NCBI RefSeq assembly: GCF_000423825.1
Contig: NZ_AUIS01000020.1
Location: forward strand, 1-46,164
Origin: Thermithiobacillus tepidarius DSM 3134
Lineage (GTDB): Bacteria; Pseudomonadota; Gammaproteobacteria; Acidithiobacillales; Thermithiobacillaceae
Reading direction: 5' to 3'
Length of the DNA: 46,164 nucleotides
Shown here: in pieces, positions 1 through 40,506 of the stretch
Layout of the letters: every line of letters starts with the position of its first letter
Position numbering within the stretch: the stretch's first letter is position 1
The notes under the pieces: generated by a model
Told to the model about the DNA's origin: nothing
Seen by the model: the letters and a program-made list of their open reading frames with translations, nothing else
The model's database searches: none
Translations under genes and position numbers: made by a program

Positions 1-309
1 CGCAGCACTGATCCAGGATCAGCCGGCCGAATTCATCGTGGCCGACAAGGGCTACGATTCGGATGCCTTCGTCGAAACAATTACGACGCAGGGCGGTCAG
101 GCGGTAATCCCGCCGCGTTCCAACCGACTCAACCCCCGCTCGTTCGACCGGCATATCTACAAGAGCCGCAATCTGATCGAGCGTTTCTTCGCTCGCATCA
201 AGCAATTCAGACGCATCGCCACGCGTTACGACAAGCTCGCCCACTCCTTCCTGTCGTTCGTCCATCTGGCTTGTTCCATCGTCTGGTTGGCTTGATTGAG
301 AACAGACCC
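1..309 (+). mobile_element. 3' end of an IS5-type insertion sequence
   Basis: The window opens inside an insertion sequence. The transposase reading frame is open from base 2 to its stop at 293-295. It is followed by TTGAGAACAGACCC (296-309), whose reverse complement GGGTCTGTTCTCAA looks like the terminal inverted repeat of an IS5-group element. The left end lies outside the window, so the pairing of the two ends cannot be confirmed. The nagZ ribosome-binding site begins two bases after the proposed IS end. Confidence 0.75.
2..295 (+). CDS. IS5-family transposase, C-terminal fragment (5' partial)
   Basis: This is the last 97 residues of a DDE transposase, which catalyses cut-and-paste movement of its IS. 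Visible hallmarks are VADKGYDSDAF, which carries the second catalytic Asp region, and the exact IS4/IS5 signature Y-(2)-R-(3)-E-(6)-K in YKSRNLIERFFARIKQ, which supplies the catalytic Glu. The C-terminal tail (FLSFVHLACSIVWLA) is typical of IS5-group proteins. A GTG at 38 is only an internal codon; the true start is upstream of the window. There is no frameshift in the visible part, so the element may be intact. Confidence 0.9.
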   Translation, partial: AALIQDQPAEFIVADKGYDSDAFVETITTQGGQAVIPPRSNRLNPRSFDRHIYKSRNLIERFFARIKQFRRIATRYDKLAHSFLSFVHLACSIVWLA

Positions 310-6318: not shown

Positions 6319-6393
<75 letters not shown>

Positions 6394-6403
6394 AGATTTC
6401 CAT

Positions 6404-6430
6404 GGGGAAAGCGGTGCTTTCCCCTTTCTT
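6404..6430 (+). terminator. Terminator-like hairpin between tRNA-Gly and tRNA-Cys
   Basis: Perfect 9-bp stem GGGGAAAGC (6404-6412) / GCTTTCCCC (6416-6424) with loop GGT, followed by TTTCTT. This has the form of an intrinsic terminator but sits inside the tRNA array, only 22 bases before tRNA-Cys. It may act as a partial terminator or as a processing signal for the precursor RNA. Confidence 0.6.
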
Positions 6431-6445
6431 GCATTAAGCGCCCCC

Positions 6446-6519
6446 GGCTGGGTGGCAGAGTGGTTATGCAGCGGCCTGCAAAGCCGTGGACGCCGGTTCG
6501 ATTCCGACCCCAGCCTCCA
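6446..6519 (+). tRNA. cysT: tRNA-Cys (GCA)
   Basis: Seventy-four bases. The acceptor stem GGCTGGG pairs with CCCAGCC, followed by discriminator T and an encoded CCA. The anticodon GCA is at 6478-6480 in the loop CTGCAAA. The T arm contains GGTTCGATTCC. It is the second tRNA of the array, as in E. coli glyW-cysT-leuZ. Confidence 0.97.
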
Positions 6520-6532
6520 AATTCCTTCCCCC

Positions 6533-6617
6533 GCCCGGGTGGCGAAATCGGTAGACGCAAGGGACTTAAAATCCCTCGCCTTCGGGCATGCCGGTTCGAG
6601 TCCGGCCCCGGGCACCA
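6533..6617 (+). tRNA. leuZ: tRNA-Leu (TAA)
   Basis: Eighty-five bases with a long variable arm, a class II tRNA. The acceptor GCCCGGG pairs with CCCGGGC, then discriminator A and an encoded CCA. The anticodon TAA is at 6567-6569 in the loop CTTAAAA between AGGGA and TCCCT. The variable arm is around CGCCTTCGGGC. No T-rich terminator follows immediately. This is the tRNA behind which the first accessory block begins. Confidence 0.97.
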
Positions 6618-9901: not shown

Positions 9902-9927
9902 AGCCGGATAGGCGAGGCTATCCGGCT
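9902..9927. terminator. Bidirectional hairpin between convergent kinase and yqaJ genes
   Basis: Perfect 10-bp stem AGCCGGATAG (9902-9911) / CTATCCGGCT (9918-9927) with a 6-base loop. It lies between the kinase stop (9884) and the 3' end of the YqaJ gene. The right arm overlaps the YqaJ stop codon and last codons. There is no long T run, so it may terminate weakly or protect both 3' ends. Confidence 0.6.
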
Positions 9928-10778
9928 TGCTTGCGCTCGAGGGTGGAAATGGTGCAGACCAGGCTGCCCGGCTTGCGGTAGGGTTCCAGGTCCACCTCCT
10001 GGAGAAGCGGCACCTTGCCGTAATCGATGCTGCCCTTGCGGAAAGTCTTGGCGACCCGCACCCCGGCGCCCATGGTGACGCCGGTGCCGGCCAGGGCCTC
10101 CAGGCGCGCCCGGGCTTCGGCTTCGGCGGCCCTGGCCGCCTGCAGCGCCTGCTGGGCCTGCTGCCAAGCGCGGGCATGCCGCGCCCACTCGGCATCCTCG
10201 CGCAGCACGGGGTCCTGGGCGCCGAGTGGCGGCGGCTCGTCGGCTTGCACGTAGCCCCAGAAGGTGCGCTCGGCTTCCACCAGATCATGGATGTAGGCAC
10301 CATCCGGGTAGACCTCCACCAGCACGCCCTGCGCCCCGTCGAAGGACCAGAGGTGACACACTTCGGCGCCGGTCACGCTCAGTTGATGCTGAATCTGCGC
10401 GATGTACTTCTGCGGCACCTTGCCCGCCCGCGCCAGGGAATGATCCTCCGTCCCGGGACACTTGATTTCCAGGATGAGATCCTCGTCCAGGGAGATGCCG
10501 TCCAGGCTGGCCAGCATGAAATCGTGCTGGGGATGGATCCGGCAGTGCGGCTCCACGATGTTGCCGGTGTACGCCTCGTAGGCCGCGCGGGCGACCGGCT
10601 CCAGGGCGATGCCGCGGCGCATGGCCCCGGTGCGGGGCGCCGGCGCCCGGCGGCCGGTCTTGCTCTCCCACAGCTCAAAGGGCGTGGCCCAGGGCGAATC
10701 GCCTGTCACGATCGGGGCCTCGGACGAACCGATGCCCCGACTGCGCCACGCCAGCCAGTCGGCCGTGCGCTGCTTCAT
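9918..10778 (-). CDS. YqaJ-type phage recombination exonuclease
   Basis: A 286-residue member of the YqaJ/lambda-exonuclease superfamily (PD-(D/E)XK fold), which resects double-stranded DNA 5'-3' to give single strands for annealing. Catalytic features are visible: the N-terminal GIGSSEAP element (15-22), E60 in RRGIALEP, D93 in LASLDG, and E104-x-K106 in LEIKCPG, with a downstream QIQHQL helix that is typical of the family. Residues 190-225 are an Ala/Arg-rich coiled coil. The final 60 residues are an extension past the nuclease core. The start codon overlaps the stop of the upstream gene by 4 bp, so the two are translationally coupled. No phage structural, integrase or lysis genes are nearby. 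Confidence 0.9.
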   Translation of the reverse strand: MKQRTADWLAWRSRGIGSSEAPIVTGDSPWATPFELWESKTGRRAPAPRTGAMRRGIALEPVARAAYEAYTGNIVEPHCRIHPQHDFMLASLDGISLDEDLILEIKCPGTEDHSLARAGKVPQKYIAQIQHQLSVTGAEVCHLWSFDGAQGVLVEVYPDGAYIHDLVEAERTFWGYVQADEPPPLGAQDPVLREDAEWARHARAWQQAQQALQAARAAEAEARARLEALAGTGVTMGAGVRVAKTFRKGSIDYGKVPLLQEVDLEPYRKPGSLVCTISTLERKQAG

Positions 10779-11365
10779 GCCGCGGCCCGCCGCTTCTTCT
10801 CGAGCATCTTGACCGCCCGGTTATAGTCCTTGGCGGGCAGTTCCGCGAAGCTGGCGACGTGGAAGAAGGCCAGCATCTTGTCCACGTCCGCATGCACCTC
10901 GTCGGCCAGGGTGCGCAGATGCTCCTGCTGTTCCACCGTCACGGTGTCCACCTTCACTTCCTGCTGCTGGTGAATGGCGTTTTCCACCTCGTTGGCGCTG
11001 GCATACTCGCCGCCGTGCAGTCCCAGATTGGCCAGGGCCCGGCCCACCGCGCTGGTTTCGCAGTTCTCGATGGCGCTGGTGCGGTTGACCTGGCTGGAGT
11101 TGCGCCGCTCCTCGGCATAGCCGTTGCCGATCAGCACCCACTGGCCGTCATGGAAAAACTCGATGCGGGCCAGCACGATCACGCGCTCGTCGTTGGCCTC
11201 CACGATCTCGGTCAGAATGCGACCCTTGACGCCAAAGATTTCGCGGAAGACCTCGTTGCGTTGCGCGACGGTGGTGTAGCGCTTGCGGCCGAGCAGAATG
11301 CCCTTCTCGTTCAGTTCGGCAACCCGCTGCATGGCCGCTTTCAACAGTTTGTTCAACTCTTCCAT
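10775..11365 (-). CDS. Putative phage-type single-strand annealing protein (ERF-like)
   Basis: A 196-residue protein translated just before the YqaJ exonuclease, the usual place for a recombination partner. The block TSAIENCETSAVGRALANLG (about residues 96-115) resembles a segment shared by many phage ERF/RecT-type recombination proteins. The C-terminal EQQEHLRTL...AVKMLEKKR helical module also recurs in such proteins. The assignment to ERF is by resemblance and context only; a DNA-binding fold cannot be proven here. The start at 11365 is chosen because GGAG lies 6 bases upstream; in-frame ATGs at 11371 and 11377 are alternatives, and the frame is open to 11464. It overlaps the exonuclease gene by 4 bp. 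Confidence 0.65.
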   Translation of the reverse strand: MEELNKLLKAAMQRVAELNEKGILLGRKRYTTVAQRNEVFREIFGVKGRILTEIVEANDERVIVLARIEFFHDGQWVLIGNGYAEERRNSSQVNRTSAIENCETSAVGRALANLGLHGGEYASANEVENAIHQQQEVKVDTVTVEQQEHLRTLADEVHADVDKMLAFFHVASFAELPAKDYNRAVKMLEKKRRAAA

Positions 11366-11802
11366 ATTCATCTCCATACGTTCGCCTGCCGCATCCCGGC
11401 GGGAGGCGGCAAAACAGGGCGGTGCGCCCGGGGCGCCAGCAGGGTTGATCAGAGGCAGAAACAAAGCGCTTGGAAGCGGTTCCGGTGCTGGCGGTCGAAG
11501 CTGTTTCCCAAGCTATAATCAGACCGCGAAATCGCAGAAAAGTTTCCGATGGCGGGGAAAGTGGAAGAAGAAATATGAAAAGCCTGGGAAACCAGGAATG
11601 ATGGAGATGCGTCGTCAGGCGATCCCGCGTTCAAACAAAAGGATAAACGCTGGTGTTCGAGTTGTAAACATCCTTTGCAAGGCCGGAAACAAGGGGGCGG
11701 CCGGTGCGTGAGAGTGCCGGAAACCGGGGGTTTCTGGCCGCGGATGAAAAGTTGACCCGCTGATCGCCCGCATTAGGGGGGAAGGTCGCGCAGACGCGGC
11801 AC
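11366..11802. other. Intergenic region rich in inverted repeats between rlpA and the recombination operon
   Basis: A stretch of 437 bases with no convincing gene. It contains several potential hairpins: CCTGG-GAAA-CCAGG (11583-11596, a GNRA-type loop), AAAGGAT/ATCCTTT (11638-11644 with 11670-11676), and GCCGGAAACC/GGTTTCTGGC (11716-11725 with 11729-11738, one G-T pair). It also has an imperfect direct repeat GCCGGAAAC...GGGGG at 11682 and 11716. The first repeat copy can pair with the same 3' arm, so two folds compete. The content could be a structured leader of the minus-strand operon, a small RNA, or the scar of a lost element. Confidence 0.5.
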
Positions 11803-12606
11803 TCAGGGGAGCACCACCATCGCATTTATCCCCAGATCGTCGGCCAGGCGCAGCCTGACGGTTTCCGCTTCACGGCTGTCCGCGAAAGGGCCAATTCGGA
11901 CCTTGTAAAGCGTGCTCCCTGGCGATGGGTTGGACAGCACGCTGGCGTTGGCGATGCCCGCGCTCAGGAGCCGCTGGCGCAGTCCCTCGGCATTGCTGAC
12001 GAGGGCAAAGGCGCCGGTCTGCAGATAAACGCCCGCCGAAGCGGTGGACGGCAGCGCAGGGACTGCCGGCGCCACCGGCGGCGCGACGGGGACGGGTGCC
12101 GGGGCGGTCGGCAACGGCGCACCGCCCAAGGCCACCACTTCCACCGGCGCGGTGCCGGTGATGCCCAGGCGCTTGGCGGTGCCGGCGGACAGGTCGATGA
12201 GCCGGCCGTCGATGAAGGGGCCGCGGTCGTTGACCATCACCTCCACGGAACGGCCGTTTTGCAGGTTGGTCACGCGTACCAGGGTCGGCAGGGGCAAGGT
12301 GCGATGGGCGGCGCTGATGCCGTCGGGATCGAAGCGGGTGCCCATGGAGGTGCGGTTGCCGGATTCCCAGCCGTACCACGAGGCGATGCCCCGTTCCCGA
12401 TAGCCGGCGCTGCTGGCCATGGGGTAGTAGGTACGGCCCCGGATGGTATAGGGCCGGTTGTAGGCGGCCTTGGGATTGGGGGCGCTCAGTTCGGGGCGCG
12501 GCGGCGTGGTGCTGCAGGCCGTCACTGTGAGCAGGGTCGGGAAGGCGAGCAGGAGCGCTATGGCGCTGCCGGTCACGCGGGGCAGGCGTGGGATTGCAGT
12601 CGACAC
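11803..12606 (-). CDS. rlpA: RlpA-like septal ring lipoprotein with SPOR domain
   Basis: Outer-membrane lipoprotein of the RlpA family, some members of which are lytic transglycosylases acting on denuded glycans at the division septum. A signal peptide ends in lipobox VTAC with C31 as the lipidated residue. The double-psi beta-barrel domain spans about residues 70-160 (GIASWYGWESGNRTSMG, then TLPLPTLVRVTNL and VNDRGPFIDGR with D127). A Pro/Ala linker (162-188) leads to a C-terminal SPOR domain (193-267) that binds denuded peptidoglycan. The family motif normally reads T-A-x-G-E-x-F-D; here it is T-S-M-G-T-R-F-D, so the putative catalytic Glu is Thr at position 90. It lies 44 bp after dapE on the same strand. 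Confidence 0.92.
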   Translation of the reverse strand: MSTAIPRLPRVTGSAIALLLAFPTLLTVTACSTTPPRPELSAPNPKAAYNRPYTIRGRTYYPMASSAGYRERGIASWYGWESGNRTSMGTRFDPDGISAAHRTLPLPTLVRVTNLQNGRSVEVMVNDRGPFIDGRLIDLSAGTAKRLGITGTAPVEVVALGGAPLPTAPAPVPVAPPVAPAVPALPSTASAGVYLQTGAFALVSNAEGLRQRLLSAGIANASVLSNPSPGSTLYKVRIGPFADSREAETVRLRLADDLGINAMVVLP

Positions 12607-12650
12607 GGTGATCTTCCTCGGAGGCTTGGTGTTGTTCTTGCCGCGGGCGG

Positions 12651-13796
<1,146 letters not shown>

Positions 13797-13887
13797 TTAT
13801 TTCGCTGGATGTATGTTATCTTGCCGGCACTTTATAGTGGCCGTTTTCAGTGGCGCCACGCCCTTCACGATGGAGATGCAGCGGATC

Positions 13888-14148
13888 ATGAGTCTTTACC
13901 GCAAGGGGGAGCCTTACCTCGTCAAGCTGGCGGCGGGCGAGGGCGCGAAGATCTGCAGCTGCGGCCAGACCGCGTCCCCGCCCTTCTGCGACGACAGCCA
14001 CATGCGCTGCGACGGCCGGCACCGTCCCTTCGTGCTGGCGCCCGCCGGCTTCCCCCAGCATGTCTGGGTGTGCGGCTGCGGCCGCTCGCGGGCCATGCCC
14101 TACTGCGACGGCAGCCACAAGGCGGCTCAGGAGCAGAAGGCCTCGTAG
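13888..14148 (+). CDS. Twin-CDGSH iron-sulfur domain protein
   Basis: An 86-residue protein with two iron-sulfur binding motifs of the form C-x-C-x2-(S/T)-x3-P-x-C-D-x-S-H. The first uses C23, C25, C34 and H38 (CSCGQTASPPFCDDSH) and the second C62, C64, C73 and H77 (CGCGRSRAMPYCDGSH). Each should bind one [2Fe-2S] cluster with three Cys and one His ligand. The first motif has CDDSH rather than CDGSH. Bacterial members are thought to have redox or cluster-transfer roles, but no specific partner is known. In-frame ATGs at 13870 and 13876 are alternative starts; GGAG lies at 13872-13875. Its last 22 bases overlap the convergent yffB gene. Confidence 0.9.
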   Translation: MSLYRKGEPYLVKLAAGEGAKICSCGQTASPPFCDDSHMRCDGRHRPFVLAPAGFPQHVWVCGCGRSRAMPYCDGSHKAAQEQKAS

Positions 14149-14471
14149 TCGGCCGGCCGGAAGCCCAGCTGGTAGGCGCCGTCACGCGCCAGCAGGGGAC
14201 GCTTCAGCAGGGTCGGATGGCGGGCCAGCAGGGCGATGGCCGCCTCCCTGTCCGCCACCGTCCTGTCCGCTTCCGGCAGCTGCCGCCAGGTGCTGGATTG
14301 GCGGTTGAGCAGACGCTCCCAGCCGAGGGCGTCGGCCCAGGTCCGCAGCATGGCCGCGTCCAGGCCGTCCCGGCGCAGGTCGTGGAAGCGGTGGGCGATG
14401 CCGCGCTCCTCCAGCCAGCGCCGCGCCTTGCGGCAGGTGTCGCAATTGGGAATGCCGTAGAGGGTGAGCAT
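14127..14471 (-). CDS. yffB: ArsC/Spx-family protein, YffB-like
   Basis: A 114-residue thioredoxin-fold protein of the arsenate reductase-like family. The N-terminus LTLYGIPNCDTCRKARRWL carries a C10-x2-C13 motif as in Spx/YffB proteins, and LLKRPLL with the GFRP segment follows near the C-terminus. E. coli YffB sits beside dapE, and this gene also lies within the dap cluster, 5 bp after dapD. A glutathione-dependent reductase role has been suggested for the family but is not shown by the sequence. The start at 14471 is set by homology to this N-terminus; the frame is open far upstream through dapD. It is convergent with and overlaps the CDGSH gene. Confidence 0.88.
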   Translation of the reverse strand: MLTLYGIPNCDTCRKARRWLEERGIAHRFHDLRRDGLDAAMLRTWADALGWERLLNRQSSTWRQLPEADRTVADREAAIALLARHPTLLKRPLLARDGAYQLGFRPADYEAFCS

Positions 14472-14476
14472 GGCGC

Positions 14477-15298
14477 TCAGATGTCCCGCAGCAGCTCGTT
14501 GATGCCCACCTTGGCGCGGGTCTTGGCGTCGACCTGCTTGACGATGACCGCGCAGTAGAGGCTGTACTTGCCGTCCTTGCTCGGCAGGTTGCCGGACACC
14601 ACCACCGAGCCGGCCGGGATGCGCCCGTAGCTGATCTCGCCGGTCTCGCGGTTGTAGATTTTGGTGCTCTGGCCGATGTAGACGCCCATGGAAATCACCG
14701 AGCCTTCCTCCACGATCACGCCTTCCACCACCTCGGAGCGCGCGCCGATGAAGCAGTTGTCCTCGATGATGGTGGGGTTGGCCTGCAGCGGCTCCAGCAC
14801 GCCACCGATGCCGACGCCGCCGGAGAGGTGCACGTTCTTGCCGATCTGGGCGCAGGAGCCCACCGTCGCCCAGGTGTCCACCATGGTGCCCTCGTCCACG
14901 TAGGCGCCGATGTTCACGAAGGACGGCATCAGCACCACGTTGCGGCCGATGAAGGAGCCCTTGCGCACCGCCGCCGGCGGCACCACGCGGAAGCCGCCGG
15001 TACGGAAGTCGTTGCTGTTGTAGTCGGCGAACTTGGGCGGCACCTTGTCGTAGTACTGGGTCTCGCCGCCGTTCATGCGGTAGTTGTCGTCGATGCGGAA
15101 GGACAGCAGTACGGCTTTCTTGAGCCACTGGTGGGTGACCCACTGGCCTTCCTGTTTCTCGGCCACGCGCAGCACGCCCTTGTCCAGGCTCTCGATCGCG
15201 TGGTGCACGGCCTCGCGCAGCTCGGCGCTGGTGCTGCGCGGATTGATGCTGGCGCGGTCCTCGAAGGCGGTTTCGATGATCTGCTGCAGGTTCGACAT
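14477..15298 (-). CDS. dapD: 2,3,4,5-tetrahydropyridine-2,6-dicarboxylate N-succinyltransferase
   Basis: Trimeric acyltransferase that transfers succinyl from succinyl-CoA to tetrahydrodipicolinate, opening the succinylase branch to diaminopimelate and lysine. The 273 residues match the family. The central part shows the hexapeptide pattern of a left-handed beta helix (for example [20 protein letters not shown] and [20 protein letters not shown]), and the C-terminus ends [10 protein letters not shown] as in many DapD proteins. The gene lies 6 bp after dapC and 5 bp before yffB, clearly one operon. Confidence 0.98.
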
Positions 15299-40430: not shown

Positions 40431-40506
40431 TCCCCGGTAGCTCAGTCGGTAGAGCGGGTGACTGTTAATCACTAGGTCGGCGGTTCGAGCCCGTCCCGGG
40501 GAGCCA
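40431..40506 (+). tRNA. tRNA-Asn (GTT)
   Basis: Seventy-six bases. The acceptor TCCCCGG pairs with CCGGGGA, then discriminator G and an encoded CCA (40504-40506). The anticodon GTT is at 40464-40466 in the loop CTGTTAA. The T arm contains GGTTCGAGCCC. It has its own promoter and terminator, so it is a single-gene unit. The second accessory block begins 3' of it. Confidence 0.97.

Follow-up and report, generated by a model that had tools for sequence, protein, structure and literature searches.

Exonuclease/annealase pairs are familiar as tools of phages and mobile elements. The DNA analysed here, a contig of Thermithiobacillus tepidarius DSM 3134 (46,164 nucleotides, below called the window), contains genes for such a pair, and the question is whether they belong to a working host system for recombination or repair or are a remnant of something that arrived from outside. 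A reading made from the letters alone (the sequence-only reading) had argued for a domesticated pair, and we followed it up computationally.

Operon structure

The upstream gene of the pair (10775-11365, minus strand) encodes a Rad52/Mgm101-like annealer of 196 aa that belongs to PHROG_11717. The downstream gene (9918-10778, minus strand) encodes a YqaJ-family nuclease of 286 aa (RecE/lambda-exonuclease-like, PD-(D/E)XK). Stop and start codon overlap in an ATGA (10775-10778, minus strand; read from the sequence). The annealer begins at the ATG at position 11365, which is preceded by a GGAG ribosome-binding site and is usable as a start in a second genus of the family, too. In the window, both reading frames are open and exactly placed, and thus the 4-bp coupling and the intact frames of the sequence-only reading were both borne out. 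The genes are adjacent, co-directional and coupled, as in a phage-type exonuclease/annealase operon, and this arrangement is kept in the second genus.

Alignment of the upstream regions revealed a promoter-like block common to both genera, AACTTTTC-N19-TATAGCTTGGG (11507-11544, minus strand). The exact TATAGCTTGGG occurs once in the whole window. A sigma-70 scan did not pick the block; we infer that it may be the promoter that drives the pair. No SOS box resembling CTGT-N8-ACAG was found upstream of the operon, and the count of this LexA motif in the window was below chance expectation. SOS control through such a box was therefore rejected.

The nuclease belongs to the YqaJ/lambda-exonuclease family

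Enzymes of the YqaJ/lambda-exonuclease family are Mg2+-dependent 5'-3' exonucleases that form a ring trimer. The nuclease matched Pfam PF09588 (1.9e-31; profile positions 1-150), PHROG_434 (RecE-like exonuclease; 6.4e-54) and NCBIfam TIGR03033 (lambda-exonuclease family; 1.9e-40, exceeding the cut-off). Its best solved relative was LHK-Exo of Laribacter hongkongensis (PDB 3syy; 1.8e-13), and the catalytic set E60, D93, E104 and K106 aligned with the motifs LEP, SxDG and EIK of that structure. With a profile match over the nuclease domain, and with the catalytic acidic residues and the lysine of its PD-(D/E)XK site in place, the protein is a YqaJ nuclease, and it is as complete as had been supposed from E60, D93 and E104-x-K106. 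It also has a C-terminal extension of ~140 aa. LHK-Exo shares the family and the catalytic motifs, but it is reportedly a prophage protein encoded together with a Bet/RecT-type annealase, whereas the window nuclease is chromosomal and has a Rad52/Mgm101-like partner. Close YqaJ relatives were found on plasmids and in mobile-element modules.

The annealer has a predicted Rad52 fold

The annealer matched PHROG_11717 (1.2e-27), as did all 37 aligned relatives. PHROG_11717 is listed as 'unknown function' and is absent from Pfam; Pfam yielded nothing for the annealer itself and only scattered chance-level matches for the 36 relatives aligned with it. A core, SAIENCETSAxGRALA, is invariant in the 37-member alignment and is kept in the window annealer.

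An AlphaFold2 model of the annealer, built with the alignment of the relatives, reached a pLDDT of 80 and had the topology H-bb-a-bbb-a. This predicted model contains the beta-beta-beta-alpha core of the Rad52-like superfamily, with a helix and a hairpin before the core. Members of this superfamily assemble as rings or filaments on ssDNA and anneal strands. When the model was compared with the PDB by Foldseek, the top 25 rows were all RAD52 or Mgm101, with probabilities up to 1.0, a moderate best E value for RAD52 (7e-4) and low global TM-scores (0.26-0.40). VIA-align superposed the model on RAD52 with a Z of 9.2 (113 residues, 3.1 A), on Mgm101 with 8.8, on phage 80alpha Sak with 7.5 and on phage Gp77 with 7.3. 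Among predicted viral structures, the named matches were ERF, Rad52/59/22 and RecT proteins. The likeness to RAD52 and Mgm101 resides in the predicted fold of residues 1-121; in contrast to these proteins, the window annealer is bacterial, and it has no detectable sequence family match to them.

The partner had been described as ERF-like. Its sequence gave no profile match to ERF (PF04404) at E 1, ERF was not among the families listed for the relatives, and an hhalign comparison with the ERF alignment was not significant (E 0.16, probability 0.4%). ERF membership was therefore rejected. The Sak3/SSAP_Sak family (PF06378) was likewise rejected, since there was no Pfam match and hhalign against the Sak alignment was not significant (E 0.16 over 13 columns). 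Because neither comparison was significant, we take the annealer, as modelled, to be a Rad52-fold protein that forms a sequence family of its own. 'ERF-like' thus fails as a statement about sequence and holds as a statement about kind, the predicted fold being Rad52-like. The concern that the gene might come from a family unrelated to annealing proteins was not realized either, as both the fold and the gene neighbourhood of the relatives (see below) fit the functional kind. Together, the profile and structure searches confirmed YqaJ and placed its partner in the unnamed Rad52/Mgm101-like family PHROG_11717.

Four annealer relatives from phages (L040, L045, L053 and L069) end in DEIPF or DDIPF, resembling the C-terminal tip of SSB that docks repair proteins. 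The window annealer is without such an end.

Relatives of the annealer are found in phage recombination modules

On phage contigs, the gene before the annealer is usually a PD-(D/E)XK, Cas4-like or YqaJ nuclease gene; the two often overlap, and in some cases SSB is next. Lactobacillus phage Ld17 has the order annealer, two small genes, exonuclease, SSB and NinB, with a RusA-like resolvase farther along. In Caudoviricetes MW202512, a homologue labelled 'mgM101-like' is followed by exonuclease and SSB, and a Desulfosarcina plasmid has the order SSB, nuclease, annealer. On an integrase-bearing contig binned as Euryarchaeota (L160:5770-7955), an annealer gene is followed by YqaJ and then by an SSB-like gene, close to the integrase-like gene; the first two overlap and have the same order as in the window. 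The SSB-like and integrase-like genes were judged by eye from the sequence. Among organised relatives, those closest to the pair are phage or prophage modules. Ld17, MW202512 and L160 share with the window the annealer family and its closeness to an exonuclease, and they add SSB; unlike the window locus, every one of these modules lies in a phage, a phage-like contig or a plasmid, and their identity to the window annealer is at most ~56%.

Two-part systems of this sort are also known outside phages. The SXT integrating conjugative element encodes an alkaline exonuclease and a single-strand annealing protein that form a two-part recombination system (PMC3118119). In contrast to that element, the window locus showed no mobile element and has an annealase of a different family. 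The SXT annealer is said to be Bet-type.

A Gemmatimonas metagenome-assembled genome contains a distant annealer relative (L159:5917-6576; 26% identity) with seemingly ordinary chromosomal neighbours and no YqaJ beside it. It is possibly a second chromosomal case.

The pair has the same chromosomal place in two genera

Among 96 relatives, the annealer was found only in G001, the one other genome of the family in the set searched, which represents another genus. It was restricted to T. tepidarius and G001 among 369 genomes drawn from the class, and to T. tepidarius among 398 genomes from the phylum. A pattern scan with the annealer alignment covered 84,980 species and yielded six further loci, mostly on phage-like or short contigs; an earlier contig scan with the single annealer protein as query had given no match.

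Directly upstream of the pair lies rlpA-dapE-dapD (11803-15298, minus strand), a housekeeping anchor outside the system whose order is shared with G001 and the sister family. The window (9949-40513) and G001 (C1, 191776-221727) are collinear over a block of ~30 kb, and in both the pair, which stands alone in the T. tepidarius chromosome, lies at the same rlpA-dapE-dapD junction. Amino acid identity between the two genera is 67% for YqaJ and 84% for the annealer. Rather than being confined to prophages of close relatives, the pair thus occupies one chromosomal place in another genus as well, and since it is intact there, the two genes probably work for the host. We think it likely that a phage-type exonuclease/annealase operon for RecA-independent recombination or repair was captured once. 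It would have entered the chromosome in the ancestor of the Thermithiobacillaceae before the two genera split, and would since then have been passed on vertically and retained by selection. The vertical part of this account rests on a single comparison, that of the two carrier genomes.

Homology between T. tepidarius and G001 stops exactly at the 3' end of the nuclease gene. The left flanks differ beyond this break, with a sensor kinase in T. tepidarius and HPP, DUF1622 and M61 genes in G001. At least one rearrangement has therefore affected the locus, and insertions could favour this site. In the sister family, dapD-dapE-rlpA is conserved and the pair is missing, which speaks for the ancestral capture. 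The YqaJ genes of that family (~40% identical) have ERF, DUF4942, actin-like, DUF932 or Gp3-like genes as neighbours and so belong to mobile-type modules. The loss of synteny on one side and the mobile-type company of these YqaJ genes would be expected if the same mobile element had arrived twice independently, or recently, at a hotspot beside rlpA. Such arrivals would have to reproduce the gene order, the orientation, the rlpA junction and the upstream noncoding sequence, all of which are shared, and synonymous divergence resembles that of the neighbours (see below). Furthermore, neither an integrase among the neighbours nor a convincing attachment-site-like or flanking repeat was found at the site, and the phage, plasmid and viral contigs searched held no close copy of the annealer (best identity ~56%). 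We regard separate or recent arrivals as improbable and retain a single ancestral capture.

One sister-family genome (L132:3642-7079) combines a YqaJ nuclease with an ERF annealer in a single mobile-type region that also contains an actin-like gene.

Genomic context and selection

The flanking genes examined were housekeeping, signalling and membrane genes, and no phage gene stood out among them. This agrees with the earlier statement that integrase, replication, packaging and lysis genes are missing nearby; integrase, packaging and structural genes around the pair were likewise absent from the neighbours examined. Terminase_6N, the one phage family scanned genome-wide, was absent from T. tepidarius and G001, and control matches were obtained in six genomes. 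The pair had also been placed 3' of tRNA-Leu and beside a sensor kinase. The kinase is indeed there (PAS/GAF histidine kinase, 1004 aa), but it lies between the pair and the tRNA cluster Gly-Cys-Leu (6319-6617), which is ~3.3 kb away. A defence origin, offered earlier as one option, found no backing: PADLOC had no match for the nuclease or the neighbours and only a weak Cas6 match (0.005) for the annealer. An anti-phage defence system was rejected for lack of a matching PADLOC model.

Comparing T. tepidarius with G001 by NG86, we obtained dN/dS ratios of 0.12 for the annealer (dN 0.099, dS 0.84) and 0.26 for YqaJ (dN 0.30, dS 1.15), with dS values near 1 being close to saturation. The housekeeping genes dapD, dapE and rlpA gave ratios of 0.12-0.31 and dS values similar to those of the pair (rlpA 1.03, dapE 0.87). 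As a control, the wrong-strand (antisense) frame of a neighbouring gene gave 1.5. The GC3 of the pair (0.86-0.87) is like that of neighbouring genes. Both genes are under purifying selection. The ratios well below 1 and the conserved place support the earlier suggestion of selection after domestication instead of decay.

These data also bear on the idea that the pair is a decaying prophage or plasmid relic that is still intact by chance and serves no host function. Phages and plasmids routinely carry such pairs, and the synteny break at the left border would suit a relic. Decay is at odds with two intact copies in two genera, with the low dN/dS of both genes at a dS like that of housekeeping neighbours, and with flanking genes among which no other phage gene was seen. 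A functionless relic is therefore doubtful, and retention by selection is the reading that we prefer.

A transposase-like fragment lies at the left contig end (window 38-295). In G001, an integrase gene (C1:222380-222829) lies just outside the syntenic block, at a distance of ~30 kb from the pair, and adjoins the place matching tRNA-Asn (window 40431-40506). This integrase region is likely a separate island.

Predicted role of the pair

By analogy with characterised systems, the likely role of the pair is RecA-independent annealing of resected ends. At a double-strand end, the YqaJ nuclease would degrade the 5' strand; the exposed 3' single strand would be bound by the Rad52/Mgm101-like protein and annealed to a complementary strand. 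If the two proteins cooperate in this way, the outcome would be RecA-independent recombination or repair. The host might benefit when repeats or broken forks need repair, or when incoming DNA is recombined.

The last of these uses could also be the main one, so that the pair would serve natural transformation or conjugation and not the repair of the cell's own breaks. Annealases of phage systems stimulate the recombination of DNA that is divergent or single-stranded (PMC8093625), which fits such a role; on the other hand, the genes beside the pair included no identified competence gene. We consider a dedicated role in the recombination of incoming DNA unlikely, if less so than the relic or the repeated arrivals, and prefer the broader recombination or repair function.

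On balance, we favour the view that the Thermithiobacillaceae have made a viral exonuclease/Rad52-type annealase pair part of their standing chromosomal repair or recombination machinery, and that they did so with a PHROG_11717 annealase to which the profile libraries searched assign no function. With the pair fixed at one chromosomal place in two genera, RecA-independent strand annealing by the host becomes directly testable. PHROG_11717, so far an unnamed family of phage proteins, also gains a likely function, and the pair is a candidate for recombineering from a sulfur-oxidiser lineage.

RecBCD and AddAB background

RecC and RecB were not detected in the T. tepidarius genome, and RecC is present in G001 and in nearly all sister genomes. 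This pattern would be compatible with the pair having replaced RecBCD as the main processor of double-strand ends. In T. tepidarius, however, an AddA-like helicase gene adjoins a TIGR03623 AddB-like nuclease gene (G000:C43, ~168986-174301; L127:3986-9301), and G001 carries a complete recBCD in addition to the pair. A replacement of RecBCD was rejected on these grounds and is highly improbable. The coexistence of recBCD and the pair in G001 means that the pair does not track RecBCD loss.
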